Source: a virus. Taken from it: a stretch of DNA of 26,428 nucleotides. Below, in pieces: positions 13,208-26,247 of this stretch; positions within the stretch are counted from its first letter, which is position 1; every line of letters starts with the position of its first letter. A program made the position numbers and the translations under genes. The stretch is from positions 1-26,428 of the IMG/VR virus record IMGVR_UViG_3300005529_000087; one strand, given 5' to 3'. The notes under the pieces were generated by a model that worked only from the letters and a program-made list of their open reading frames with translations, was not told where the DNA came from and made no database searches.

Positions 13208-13746
13208 GGAAGGCCCACAGAAGTCGGGCCAGTAGCGGCCCGGAAAAGATTGCACGCCAACGGGCCGGCAAATGCGGCCAACCGAATCACCGGACGCGCG
13301 CACGCCGGACGCGCTAAAACGCCGGCATGAGAATGCACGCGCGCAAGCGGATGGGTGCGGCGGAGCTCGAGGGGCTGAGCTCCGCCGCGGCAAGGCGTCC
13401 GCCGTTGAGCTCGACCGAGGGTGCGGCCGAGCCCATGCGTGGGGGGAAGGGAAACGGCCGGCGCCCTGCGAAGAGTGGCCACGCCGCTGGCCATCAACCG
13501 CCCTTGCGAGCGGAGCCGAACCCGGCGCCGATGGTGCGCCGCGTCGATGGTCAACGCCGTGGCCGGCTGATATGGGCCCTCACCCGCGAGCACGGCTTGC
13601 AAACACCGGGCGCCTCGCGGAGCGGTCCCGATTACCGATGCCTTGTGAGCCGGCTGGCCCGTTGTATTTCGGAAACTGACTTTGCGGAGCTCGAGCTCCG
13701 CGCGGGCCGAGCCAAGACGCCCCACGCCGAGGCTCGGCCCGACCAT
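13198..13746 (-). CDS. Doubtful open frame filling the only large gap
   Basis: 182 codons opening directly on the stop codon of the GIY-YIG-like gene and ending 10 nt inside the HTH gene, the tight packing expected of this operon. Against it: the second half is Arg/Pro/Ala-rich without fold-like patterning and uses many codons unlike the neighbours (CTT, CGT, CGG). The plus strand here also carries a long open frame with a protein-like patch RLIWALTREHGLQ. If neither is coding, 13208-13746 is a 540-bp non-coding stretch with no hairpin or promoter I could identify. Confidence 0.25.
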   Translation of the reverse strand: MVGPSLGVGRLGSARAELELRKVSFRNTTGQPAHKASVIGTAPRGARCLQAVLAGEGPYQPATALTIDAAHHRRRVRLRSQGRLMASGVATLRRAPAVSLPPTHGLGRTLGRAQRRTPCRGGAQPLELRRTHPLARVHSHAGVLARPACARPVIRLAAFAGPLACNLFRAATGPTSVGLPCA

Positions 13747-14347: not shown

Positions 14348-14458
14348 CTAGCCTTTCAGAATTTCGTCGAGGCGCTCGGTTAATGCCCGCAAGAGCTCAA
14401 TCACGCGCTCGGCTTGCTCGGCGCTCATCGGCGGCGAACCGGGCGGGCGACTTTTCAT
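14348..14458 (-). CDS. Small protein, 36 aa
   Basis: MKSRPPGSPPMSAEQAERV then a Leu-rich amphipathic helix IELLRALTERLDEILKG, enough for a small dimerising coiled coil. GGAAGGG lies upstream and the ATGA junction couples it to the Cro-position gene. Second gene of the minus early operon; function unknown. Confidence 0.55.
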   Translation of the reverse strand: MKSRPPGSPPMSAEQAERVIELLRALTERLDEILKG

Positions 14459-14700
14459 GCCGCCCTTCCGAGTTTTGGGCGCTTTGTCTCCGCGCGCCGC
14501 GTGACGCCCGCTGAGGCGCGTTCCGAGTCCATATAGGCGCGTATGCGATCGAGATTTGCCACGGTGAGGCCGCCGCCCTGCCGGACGCGCTCGACAAATT
14601 TCCCGTCGTTCATCGCGCGCCGGCCAAATGTCGATTCGGGAATTCGAAACTCAGAGCAAAAGGCGGCGATTTCGGCGAGGAGAGTCTCGGTGGTCGACAT
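14455..14700 (-). CDS. Cro-position HTH regulator, 81 aa
   Basis: First gene of the minus early operon, divergent from the CI gene as cro is from cI. The sequence ETLLAEIAAFCSEFRIPESTFGRRAMNDGKFVERVRQGGGLTVANLDRIRAYMDSE contains a helix-turn-helix-like 'fc..f.Ip.stFgr.a.nD..fv.rlr.G' pattern that I know from alphaproteobacterial phage and chromosomal small regulators. It probably binds in the divergent control region and represses CI. ATG 14700 has no Shine-Dalgarno and lies only 8 nt below the -10 box, so the transcript should be leaderless. Confidence 0.75.
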   Translation of the reverse strand: MSTTETLLAEIAAFCSEFRIPESTFGRRAMNDGKFVERVRQGGGLTVANLDRIRAYMDSERASAGVTRRAETKRPKLGRAA

Positions 14701-14708
14701 GGCGGGGG

Positions 14709-14737
14709 AAGTTAAGGGGACATATCCCCATGGTCAA
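14709..14737 (-). promoter_or_regulatory. Early promoter toward Cro-position operon
   Basis: Minus strand -35 TTGACC (14732-14737), 17-bp spacer, -10 TAACTT (14709-14714). Operator 14716-14729 fills the spacer and operator 14738-14751 abuts the -35 box. The architecture is nearly the same as the promoter at 15961-15989. Confidence 0.75.
14716..14729. promoter_or_regulatory. CI operator, Cro-side site 1
   Basis: GGGGACATATCCCC, fits GGGGA-N4-TCCCC. It covers the spacer of the minus early promoter, so occupancy should block polymerase. Repressor assignment is by location beside the cI gene and recurrence at the second early promoter. Confidence 0.75.
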
Positions 14738-14751
14738 GGGGAAACATCCCT
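14738..14751. promoter_or_regulatory. CI operator, Cro-side site 2
   Basis: GGGGAAACATCCCT, one change from GGGGA-N4-TCCCC. It starts 22 bp (two helical turns) from site 1 and touches the -35 box. It also lies upstream of the likely cI start region (weak -10 TATTAG at 14751-14756), so it may mediate autoregulation. Confidence 0.7.
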
Positions 14752-14768
14752 ATTAGCCACAGGGGCCG

Positions 14769-14791
14769 CATGTGGAAGCCTCTTCCACATG
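14769..14791 (+). promoter_or_regulatory. Perfect palindrome over cI start codon
   Basis: Arms CATGTGGAAG (14769-14778) and CTTCCACATG (14782-14791), 3-bp spacer, no mismatch. The 5' arm contains the likely cI ribosome site (GGAAG) and the 3' arm contains the cI ATG (14789-14791). As RNA it would hide both; as DNA it could be an operator for the Cro-position protein. Confidence 0.6.
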
Positions 14792-15478
14792 AATGAGCGG
14801 CGGCAAAAACTAAATCGGGAGCTCCGGCGGCGCATGGAGGCGCTCAGCGTCTCCGCCAAGAAACTGAGCCTCGACGCTGGCCTCAGCGAAACGGCCGTCA
14901 AAGATATCCTCAGCGGCAAATCGGAAAATCCCAAGCACGATACGCTCGCCAAAATAGCGAAGCGCCTTGCATGCACCGTCGCCGATCTCATGGGCGAGCG
15001 CCCGGCCGCTCGGCCGAGAGCGGTGAGCGAGGGGGGCGACACCATCGCCATCAATGAGCTCGACGTGCACGCCGCCGCCGGCATCGCCGGCGACGATGGC
15101 GAGGCAATCCTCGCTTCGGATGAGCCTGGCCTTGTGACTGGCGTGCACACTTACCCGGCCGCCAGCTTCCGCGAAGCCTACGGCATCAATCCGGGCAATA
15201 TCCGAATTATCCCGGTGCGCGGAAATTCGATGGAGCCAGAATTGTGGTCCGGGCAACGGGTCATGGTCGACGTCGACGATCGCTCGCCGTCGCCGCCCGG
15301 CATTTTTGTGGTATGGGACGGCCTCGGCTTGGTGCTGAAATACGTTGAAGTTATTGCGAATTCCGAGCCGGTGCGCGTTCGCATTTCGAGCGCACATCAA
15401 GCGTTCAAGCCTTACGAGCGCAACCTCGACGAAGCCTACATCAACGGCCGCGTCGTCGGAGTCTGGAAGCGGCTTTAG
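14789..15478 (+). CDS. CI-type repressor, HTH plus S24 peptidase
   Basis: 229 aa from ATG 14789 (MNERRQKLNRELRRR); the open frame continues upstream to 14543 but that part overlaps the divergent gene and control region. N-terminal XRE-type HTH, residues about 8-68 (MEALSVSAKKLSLDAGLSETAVKDILSGK). A linker with candidate self-cleavage Ala97-Gly98 follows (DVHAAAGIAG). The C-terminal LexA/S24 domain has catalytic Ser147 in VRGNSMEPEL and Lys184 in GLVLKYVE. It maintains lysogeny by binding the GGGGA-N4-TCCCC operators at both early promoters and is inactivated by RecA-stimulated self-cleavage on DNA damage (family knowledge). Convergent stop overlap with the lipoprotein gene. Confidence 0.93.
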   Translation: MNERRQKLNRELRRRMEALSVSAKKLSLDAGLSETAVKDILSGKSENPKHDTLAKIAKRLACTVADLMGERPAARPRAVSEGGDTIAINELDVHAAAGIAGDDGEAILASDEPGLVTGVHTYPAASFREAYGINPGNIRIIPVRGNSMEPELWSGQRVMVDVDDRSPSPPGIFVVWDGLGLVLKYVEVIANSEPVRVRISSAHQAFKPYERNLDEAYINGRVVGVWKRL

Positions 15479-15891
15479 CTGCTAGCTGGTCCTAAAATCT
15501 TGCCGCCGCCGCGCGCGCATATCGCCGCGGTGAATGTCGTTTTGGCGCCGTTGCTCTCGAAATAGCACGTCACCTTGGCGTCCGGCGCGTAAATCTCGCC
15601 CTTCGCGCCGGTCATCGGGCCGGACACGACAGGCGGCTCCTTATAGAGCGCCGAGGCGCGCGTGGCGTAGAAGCCCTTGGCATTCATGCAGCGCTCGGCA
15701 AATGCCTGAGCCTCGCCCGCGCCTACCCATCCGCCGCCGAATGACGCCGCGGCCATCCGCGTGTCACGTTCGCACTCATAAGCCGCTTGCTGCAGCTCGG
15801 TGTCCGAGGCGCCCGGCTTGTACCAAACAAACTCTTCGGTCGCGCATCCCGCCATCAGGAGGGCGAGCGCCAGTATCGCTAATCGTTTCAC
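15475..15891 (-). CDS. Lipoprotein moron between cI and second early promoter
   Basis: 138 aa from GTG 15891 (KRLAILALALLMAGC), chosen for the strong GGAGG 6 nt upstream; the in-frame ATG at 15915 lacks one. Signal peptide with lipobox LMAGC, lipidated Cys16, so an outer- or inner-membrane lipoprotein. The mature part has WYKPGASDTELQQAAYECERDTRMAA, a Gly-rich turn, then AFAERCMNAKGF, a two-Cys pattern seen in small chromosomal lipoproteins. It runs opposite to the early operon and convergent with cI (stops overlap by 3 nt), in the place of lambda rex. Expression in the lysogen and a role in host surface change or superinfection exclusion are inferences. Confidence 0.85.
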   Translation of the reverse strand: MKRLAILALALLMAGCATEEFVWYKPGASDTELQQAAYECERDTRMAAASFGGGWVGAGEAQAFAERCMNAKGFYATRASALYKEPPVVSGPMTGAKGEIYAPDAKVTCYFESNGAKTTFTAAICARGGGKILGPASS

Positions 15892-15946
15892 AGTCGGCCT
15901 CCAAGTAGGTTGCAAAGTCTACATGATCGCCGATTGTGGCGAGTGT

Positions 15947-15960
15947 GGGGAAGTTTCCCC
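15947..15960. promoter_or_regulatory. CI operator, N-side site 1
   Basis: GGGGAAGTTTCCCC, perfect GGGGA-N4-TCCCC, abutting the -35 box of the plus early promoter. It also lies about 55 bp upstream of the lipoprotein start on the other strand and might affect its promoter. Confidence 0.77.
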
Positions 15961-15989
15961 TTGACGGTGGGGATACTTCCCCCATACCT
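15961..15989 (+). promoter_or_regulatory. Early promoter toward N-position operon
   Basis: -35 TTGACG (15961-15966), 17-bp spacer, -10 ATACCT (15984-15989; TACCTT at 18 bp is the alternative). Operator 15969-15982 lies in the spacer. The expected start near 15996 gives a leader of about 24 nt before ATG 16020. Confidence 0.75.
15969..15982. promoter_or_regulatory. CI operator, N-side site 2
   Basis: GGGGATACTTCCCC, perfect GGGGA-N4-TCCCC, inside the spacer of the plus early promoter and 22 bp from N-side site 1, the same spacing as the Cro-side pair. Confidence 0.77.
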
Positions 15990-16019
15990 TCCCCCTCGAA
16001 ATCGAGCGGGGACAGCCAC

Positions 16020-16232
16020 ATGCAACCAAGTTATCCCGATATCACCCGCGGCAAGCGGGTTGTGCACAACCTCTACGGCCGCGGCCGTGTCGAAATCGTG
16101 CACCGCAATGAGCGCCAGGCCGGCGTTGTGTTCGATGGCGAGAAGGCCCGGCGCCGCGTTTGGCTGCAGCACTTGGCGGCCGAGCCCACCGCGATGCCGG
16201 CCAACCGGCCCGAGCTCACGGTGGTGCGATGA
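16020..16232 (+). CDS. Small Tudor/SH3-like protein in the lambda N position
   Basis: 70 aa, first gene of the plus early operon. The core ITRGKRVVHNLYGRGRVEIV, then AGVVFDGEKARRRVWLQHLA, follows the pattern of small Tudor/SH3 RNA-polymerase-binding modules: 'G..V.H..fG.G.V' then 'a.V.FD...k....l..L'. That pattern is found at the C-terminus of UvrD/PcrA and in CarD/Mfd-RID domains. This resemblance is by eye. Position (first gene behind a CI-controlled promoter, opposite the Cro-position promoter) is that of lambda N. A polymerase-binding or antitermination role is an attractive but unproven inference. ATG 16020 has only a weak GGGG upstream. Confidence 0.72.
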   Translation: MQPSYPDITRGKRVVHNLYGRGRVEIVHRNERQAGVVFDGEKARRRVWLQHLAAEPTAMPANRPELTVVR

Positions 16233-25014: not shown

Positions 25015-26247
25015 GTGACCGTTTTCCGCAACCGTTTCCGTGGCGGGCGGTGGCGCTATGACTTCCGAGCGGGTGGCATCCGTTACCAAGGGTATTGCAT
25101 AGACCCGGCCACCGGCGAGGATGCGAGATCACGCCAGCACGCCGAGGAGCTCGAGGCGCTCATCCGCCGTTCCGTGCGCCGGCAAGTCGACGCGGCGCGC
25201 TCGGTGTCGCGGCCTGGTAGCTTCTCGCTGGCCGAGGCGCTCCGCCTTCACATCGAGGGACAAACCGGAAGCACGCCGCTGCACATCGCCAATCTCGAGC
25301 TCTACGCGCGCGAGCTCCTCGAGCACTTCGGATATGGCCGCGCCATCGCCGATATCGACCAAATCGCGGTGGACGCCTACCGGAGCAACGCCGCGAAAGC
25401 AAAGGTGTGGATTTGGAAAGGCGGCCCGCGCAAGCGCGCCAAGATGCGGCCCGACCAAGCGGCGCGTTTCATGGTGCGCGGCGATCGGCAACGCTCGCCG
25501 GCCTCAACCAACCATTACCTCGATTGCCTGCGGGCGGCGTTCAACGTGGCGGCGCGAATTAGAGATCCCGTCAACGGCCGGCCGATGCTGCCGCACCCGC
25601 CCGAGGTGAAGCCGTTGCCGGTGCCCGAGCATAGGCCGCGGCCGATGCCGGACGCCGAGCTCTATGCGCGCCTCAAGCTGGCGCCGCCGTGGGCACGCGA
25701 GGCGGCCGAGCTCGCCCGGCACTTTGGCTTGCGCCGGGCCGAGGCGCTCCGGGTCACCATTGACCACATCGACCGCGATCGGCGCGGCCTGCACTTCCGC
25801 GGCGCCGAGAGCAAGAGCGGCCGCGATGAGTGGGCGTGGCCGATCGCCGGCGGGTGGGAGCTCCTCGAGCGCCTCGAGCGCCAGGCTCGAGCTCGAGGCG
25901 TGCGCCACCTCATCACGTGGCCCGGCGCAGCCCACATGGCCGATTTCCTGGCCGGCGAGCCGGTGCCGCGGAAGGCATGGCGGCCGCTCAAGAGCATCCG
26001 GCGCTCATGGCGCCGCACCGCCCTCGAGGCCAAGGTGGCCGCCCCGCACCGGCTGCATGACGTGCGGGCCAGGTACATCACCGAGGTGGCCAAGGTGAAC
26101 CGAGGAATTGCCAAAGAATCGGCCCGGCACGCCGACCCGGTGACCACTGAGCGCTATATCGGCGTTGCCTCGAGCGAGGTGGCCGAAATCGTGGGAAGCG
26201 TCCCACGGCCAAAAAAACGGCCTCCGCGGGCCGCTCGGGGAGGGTAG
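25015..26247 (+). CDS. int: Tyrosine recombinase, phage integrase
   Basis: 410 aa, GTG start at 25015 without an obvious ribosome site. N-terminal arm-binding part (FRNRFRGGRWRYDFRAGGIRYQGYC), a core-binding helical domain about 70-190, then the catalytic domain: Arg240 in HFGLRRAEALRV, Lys267 in ESKSGRDEWAW, His348-x-x-Arg351 in RLHDVRARYI, His372 in SARHADPVTTERY and nucleophile Tyr381. All R-K-H-R-H-Y residues appear present, so it is probably active. It integrates the phage into the 3' part of a tRNA-Pro(CGG) gene, a fragment of which lies 131 bp downstream. A palindrome GTGGGA-N4-TCCCAC is embedded near its 3' end. Confidence 0.95.
   Translation: MTVFRNRFRGGRWRYDFRAGGIRYQGYCIDPATGEDARSRQHAEELEALIRRSVRRQVDAARSVSRPGSFSLAEALRLHIEGQTGSTPLHIANLELYARELLEHFGYGRAIADIDQIAVDAYRSNAAKAKVWIWKGGPRKRAKMRPDQAARFMVRGDRQRSPASTNHYLDCLRAAFNVAARIRDPVNGRPMLPHPPEVKPLPVPEHRPRPMPDAELYARLKLAPPWAREAAELARHFGLRRAEALRVTIDHIDRDRRGLHFRGAESKSGRDEWAWPIAGGWELLERLERQARARGVRHLITWPGAAHMADFLAGEPVPRKAWRPLKSIRRSWRRTALEAKVAAPHRLHDVRARYITEVAKVNRGIAKESARHADPVTTERYIGVASSEVAEIVGSVPRPKKRPPRAARGG
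26191..26206. repeat. Operator-like palindrome in int 3' end
   Basis: GTGGGAAGCGTCCCAC, 6-bp arms around AGCG, resembles the GGGGA-N4-TCCCC operators except for the second-position change. It encodes Val-Gly-Ser-Val-Pro of the integrase. It may be a weak CI site, an arm site or chance. Confidence 0.3.

Follow-up and report, generated by a model that had tools for sequence, protein, structure and literature searches.

What does a perfect palindrome do at the very start of a phage repressor gene? In the window analyzed here, a virus record of 26,428 bases, the palindrome CATGTGGAAG-CCT-CTTCCACATG could act in DNA, as an operator, or in RNA, as a hairpin over the start codon. The original prediction described its form exactly: the 10-bp arms are complementary at every position, the loop is 3 nt, and the final three bases (14789-14791) are the repressor ATG, which thus lies within an arm and in frame with a 229-amino-acid (aa) open reading frame (ORF). 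GGAAG, which had been named as the ribosome site, is not established as such: its Shine-Dalgarno match is weak, at a distance of 10 nt from the ATG, and the evidence from the phage family favors a leaderless mRNA.

When the 150 bp around the palindrome were shuffled 20,000 times with dinucleotides preserved, 28 shuffles contained any palindrome whose arms reach at least 10 bp with a loop no longer than 12 nt. Across the whole window, the same size class yields five palindrome rows at three distinct places, compared to a mean of 1.5 rows over 40 shuffles, so that such palindromes are not rare window-wide and this one is notable for its position. The other perfect palindromes with arms of at least 10 bp are found at 13357-13388 (12-bp arms, 8-nt loop) and 25870-25900 (10-bp arms, 11-nt loop). 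Two simple explanations were considered and rejected. An intrinsic terminator is disfavored, as the palindrome is not followed by a T run and no terminator-like match is found there, and a repeated element or host regulator box is unlikely, as the sequence occurs once in the 26-kb record (which may be incomplete), even when three mismatches are allowed. Six IMG/VR stretches carry its core with the ATG, TGTGGAA-N5-TTCCACATG, and in none of the six does this core open a repressor gene.

The surroundings of the palindrome are those of a genetic switch as far as sequence goes, with divergent repressor and Cro-position genes and operators between them (Table 1); 89 bp lie between the two start codons. 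The 229-aa ORF matches HTH_26 (E = 1.1e-9) and PHROG 4, annotated as "transcriptional repressor" (E = 1.2e-24), and has a match to Peptidase_S24 that falls below the curated cutoff. Its closest relative is the repressor of the IMG/VR locus L002, at 70% identity. The 81-aa protein has no match in Pfam. Its AlphaFold2 model consists of four helices (pLDDT 79.5), and a Foldseek search with this model returns helix-turn-helix (HTH) regulators among the best matches, none with an E value below 0.9; from this predicted fold we infer that the protein binds DNA. Within the order of G001, many genomes also carry matches to the 81-aa protein's domain inside long open frames (about 375 to 720 aa).

Recognizable CI-type sites in the window have the form GGGGA-N4-TCCCC and occur as two pairs, at 14715-14752 and 15946-15983, neither of which was mentioned in the original prediction. 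The four sites are nearly identical to one another, and each pair brackets a TTGAC -35 element, the leftward TTGACC in the first pair and the rightward TTGACG in the second. Judged by their sequence, O1/O2 and O4/O5 are most simply repressor operators at two early promoters. The TCAA (plus strand) between O1 and O2 is conserved in most relatives. A sigma-70 scan of positions 14600 to 16100 returned no promoter, and the promoter elements in Table 1 are accordingly weak and derived from geometry. The second operator pair, with TTGACG between its sites, is about 1.2 kb from the first, and in L002, L099, L110, and L127 a second pair is present about 1.3 to 1.4 kb away. Such a distance between pairs would suit DNA looping.

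Table 1. Features of the repressor region, with positions in the window
Feature	Position	Strand	Basis
Perfect palindrome, proposed O3, overlaps repressor start codon	14769..14791		Sequence, chance test, O3 position of relatives
Putative operator O1, AGGGGACATATCCCCA, inside spacer of the 81-aa gene's promoter	14715..14730		
Putative operator O2, AGGGGAAACATCCCTA, 22 bp from O1	14737..14752		
Putative operator O4, TGGGGAAGTTTCCCCT, second cluster, past the repressor gene	15946..15961		
Putative operator O5, TGGGGATACTTCCCCC, 22 bp from O4	15968..15983		
-35 TTGACC, 81-aa gene's promoter	14732..14737	-	
Weak -10 TAACTT, 17-nt spacer, 8 nt before the ATG at 14700	14709..14714	-	Inference
Weak -35-like TTAGCC/TAGCCA, leaderless repressor promoter by family geometry	14753..14759	+	Inference
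AAGCCT where relatives have the -10; poor match in the window	14776..14781	+	
TATTAG, alternative -10, would yield a leader with the hairpin	14751..14756	+	Sequence, inference
-35 TTGACG, rightward promoter between O4 and O5	15961..15966	+	
Repressor (CI-like), 229 aa, Cro/C1-type HTH and weak S24 peptidase match	14789..15478	+	
81-aa divergently transcribed protein, Cro position, predicted four-helix HTH-like fold	14455..14700	-	
Out-of-frame mini-ORF MWKPLPHE (8 codons), opened by left-arm ATG, overlaps repressor start	14770..14796	+	Frame read by eye

To place the palindrome among related loci, searches were performed with the 81-aa protein, which gave 14 IMG/VR loci and, in the order of G001, 67 matches in 61 of 397 genomes. 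The 25 matches in short frames (<150 aa) were read, and L078, L083, and L086 were dropped from these as having no usable repressor start. A search with an operator-pair pattern blind to the third site yielded 29 stretches, of which 17 were usable and 12 were dropped; L091, L097, L101, L106, L107, L109, L116, and L117 have no divergent repressor after the match, and L098, L118, L100, and L119 were dropped as copies or near copies of L054, L051, L095, and L103, respectively. L079, L080, L084, L085, and L087, near copies of L077/L081, stand outside the O3-similarity, hexamer, hairpin, and GGG-N6-CCC counts; L013 and L050, which are without clear O1/O2, stand outside the scoring of O3 against O1/O2; and L005, L006, L012, L016, and L020 stand outside the alignment. 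L126 to L130 postdate the counts. Among these, L127 shows O1, O2, O3, and a second pair, and the other four have no clear repressor start with an O3. A genome scan with the single repressor found no relative. With a two-row alignment, the scan picked up one MAG of Mesorhizobium and, in a Lachnospiraceae MAG, a distant HTH match that was left out of further analysis, as were four loci from a search with the AAA protein.

In the related phages and prophages of Alphaproteobacteria, the divergent region contains three operators, with the O3 center 8 to 10 bp before the repressor ATG. Alignment on this ATG reveals O1, TCAA, and O2 in most loci and a third dyad at the ATG in about half. For this alignment and for the hexamer and hairpin counts below, repressor starts were chosen by eye, mostly as the ATG before the HTH, which could favor nearby sites. 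GGG-N6-CCC occupies the O3 place in 22 of 47 relatives, compared to about 0.2 expected from shuffles; as the loci in this count, in the O3-similarity scoring, and in the hexamer count are interrelated, such shuffle expectations overstate the number of independent cases. Between -22 and +2, the motif is found in 11 of 17 loci chosen by the O1/O2 pattern (0.03 expected) and in 11 of the 30 picked for their protein similarity (0.16 expected); in a control stretch, 0 of 17 have it. All 22 loci with GGG-N6-CCC at this place have an O3 center at -8 to -10, and in such loci O1 is mostly centered about -65 to -68 from the ATG (to -80 in a few) and O2 mostly about -43 to -46. With O1 and O2 of the relatives picked by eye before O3 was scored, 13 of 28 relatives have a top-scoring site around the ATG that is similar to their own O1/O2 at P < 0.05, with three more at P < 0.1.

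Several loci vary the arrangement. In L018, the repressor ATG is preceded by two O3-like dyads that overlap each other (GTCCTCAATCGGGGAC and GGGGACAATATCCCC), and the O3-like site of L092, GGGACATTCCC, is one base shorter than usual, the window deviating in the opposite direction. In the viral contigs L097, L101, L106, L116, and L117, GGGAGTAGTCCC units are arrayed in tandem at intervals of about 24 bp, and no repressor start follows the array.

A -10-like hexamer (score of at least 4.5) ends 6 to 7 nt before the ATG in 25 of 48 loci, compared to 3.7 expected, and in L077, L081, and L090 TTGACG lies 16 to 17 nt upstream of this hexamer. A -10 inside O3 and this close to the ATG implies that relatives would transcribe a leaderless repressor mRNA. 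For S. meliloti, PMC3616915 reports 171 TSS of leaderless mRNAs. Several genomes belonging to one order (L077, L079, L080, L081, L084, L085, L087, and L090) share a very similar chromosomal region that encodes a repressor and a small protein and has three operators; the O3 of this region contains CATAAT, with TTGACG 16 to 17 nt upstream. For a repressor promoter under O3, the family geometry is strong, whereas the window's own hexamers are weak; by this geometry, the phage studied here may likewise have its repressor promoter under the palindrome and a leaderless repressor mRNA.

The palindrome falls where the third operator is expected. Relative to the ATG, O1 lies at -66, O2 at -44, and the dyad of the palindrome, calculated from the coordinates, at -8.5, so that the window has a third dyad over the repressor start at the fixed O3 place of its relatives. 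The outer arms, TGTGG...CCACATG, are those of O3 in L014 and L113, and the middle is one base longer. The half-site, in contrast, is GTGGAA, not GTGGGA nor the phage's own AGGGGA/TGGGGA. Compared with its own O1/O2 half-sites at spacers of 3 to 6, the palindrome matches at 8 of 12 positions, no better than shuffles (P = 0.50), and the best fit, with a spacer of 7 (N7), reaches 10 of 12 (P = 0.013 for N7 alone and 0.086 over spacers of 2 to 10). An O3 that shares the O1/O2 operator sequence was tried and set aside. In L002, the nearest relative, the same two site pairs are present, and there is no O3 or palindrome at the repressor start (7/12, P = 0.87). Position and symmetry thus fit an O3, while sequence kinship with the phage's own operators does not.

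Together, these comparisons make it probable that the palindrome is an OR3-type third operator of a lambda-like immunity region. Its ligand is more likely the 81-aa protein, as the half-site and spacing of O3 differ from those of the four near-identical operators. In the scheme proposed here, repressor bound at O1 and O2 would turn off the promoter that reads leftward into the 81-aa gene, and repressor bound at O4 and O5 would turn off a rightward early promoter. O3 would overlie the beginning of the repressor gene, at the spot where relatives place the -10 of a leaderless promoter, and a protein bound there would block repressor transcription; were that protein the 81-aa one, the phage would be committed to lysis. 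Alternatively, the repressor itself may be the ligand, giving weak self-repression at high concentration. On this reading, O3 has diverged in specificity from the sites of the repressor itself. The original prediction had also proposed a DNA role, as an operator for the Cro-position protein; this role gains support from position, as relatives have a third operator at the same place, and the "second control layer" it envisaged is better put as a third operator of the primary switch.

A stricter form of this reading, which we put forward tentatively, is that specificity is split: the repressor would read four 14-bp operators, and the unrelated 81-aa HTH-like protein alone would read one 17- to 23-bp operator with an odd dyad, which would block the repressor promoter as DNA and fold over the start codon in a read-through transcript. 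If true, one element would act at both the DNA and RNA levels.

Action mainly through RNA we consider unlikely. Here, a transcript from upstream, begun at TATTAG or at an establishment promoter further left, would fold the palindrome, hide the start codon, and lower repressor translation. On such a transcript, the ATG in the left arm would in addition open the out-of-frame mini-ORF of Table 1. The isolated 23-nt hairpin does fold, at -12.9 kcal/mol (z = -6.6), and is the second most stable at the homologous place among 48 loci; the -10-like hexamer of the leaderless promoter is also poor in the window. However, energies at that place range from 0 to -15.3 kcal/mol over the 48 loci, indicating that a stable stem is not kept. 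What relatives keep are operator half-sites, and they do so likewise at O1 and O2, far from the repressor start codon, so that symmetric half-sites explain the symmetry of the palindrome without RNA. Furthermore, many relatives look leaderless, and an mRNA starting at the ATG cannot form the hairpin. Longer leaders of 65 and 106 nt are not clearly more stable than shuffles (z = -1.0 and -1.5), and the 150-nt leader that is (z = -3.0) includes O1/O2. Of the hairpin originally predicted, then, the folding holds for the isolated element, while variable stability and the leaderless geometry of relatives argue against its use; a side effect on read-through mRNA is possible.

It is likewise improbable that the palindrome is a weak, altered-spacing site of the repressor, serving self-repression at high concentration with the 81-aa protein uninvolved. 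Written as TGTGGA-N7-TCCACA, the palindrome agrees with the half-site TGGGGA at five of six positions per side, the O3 sites of relatives match their own O1/O2, and the C repressor of Rhizobium phage 16-3, also alphaproteobacterial, has operators of more than one geometry and binds sites of different spacing. Yet the N7 fit weakens to P = 0.086 over spacers of 2 to 10, and a 3-bp change in spacing rotates the half-sites by about 100 degrees relative to each other, which a rigid dimer should not tolerate. Less likely still is a chance palindrome or a drifted, nonfunctional O3 remnant: palindromes of like size do arise in whole-window shuffles, L002 lacks an O3, and the sequence does not recur before repressors, but local shuffles seldom produce one, the dyad is exactly at the O3 place, and drift would erode a symmetry that is perfect here over 10 bp.

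The proposed arrangement has counterparts in known switches. In lambda, repressor mRNA from PRM is leaderless. The distance between O2 and O3 centers is about 35 bp in the window, compared to about 23 to 24 bp in lambda, and unlike in lambda the window's O3 directly adjoins the start codon; the 81-aa protein showed no detectable kinship with lambda Cro. As with OR1-OR2-OR3 of lambda (PMC4488713), there are three positions between divergent genes; the third covers the repressor promoter in lambda and is predicted to do so here. In the switches of phiKO2, PY54, and N15 (immB), operators similarly lie between the repressor and Cro-position genes. The phiKO2 repressor is described as binding three OR and two OL sites and its Cro as binding OR3 only (PMC4997575); the window has the same two OL-type and three OR-type positions, whereas its O3 differs strongly from the other operators, and in phiKO2 the repressor also binds OR3. 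In the account of PY54, the one palindrome bound by Cro lies immediately upstream of cI, and the cI and cro mRNAs are leaderless, beginning at AUG (PMC4488713). There, a palindrome just ahead of the repressor gene, present once in the genome, serves as the third operator; the window's candidate O3 agrees with it in symmetry, place, and single occurrence in the record. The 81-aa protein of the window matches no named Cro family.

Closer to the window, Rhodobacter phage RcapNL (JQ066768, L007), whose repressor is 31% identical, has O1, O2, and an O3-like GGGCAAGTTTCCCCA just before the ATG; its O3 resembles its own O1/O2 (P = 0.044), which is not the case in the window. For Rhizobium phage 16-3, the operators listed in PMC12429752 are oL1, oL2, oR1, and oR2, with no third right site in that list, unlike the window.

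An isolated palindrome thereby gains a place within a switch, one that belongs to alphaproteobacterial phages and prophages with mostly undescribed operators. Many phages and prophages, mostly traced to Alphaproteobacteria, follow one grammar: operator, TTGAC, operator, about 35 bp, operator, ATG. In phiLM21-like prophages of Sinorhizobium, the search described in PMC12429752 found no exact counterparts of the lambda or 16-3 operators, and this grammar offers a direct route to the operators of these prophages. With the third site diverged as it is here, whether the Cro-position protein has a private site of its own becomes a directly testable question.
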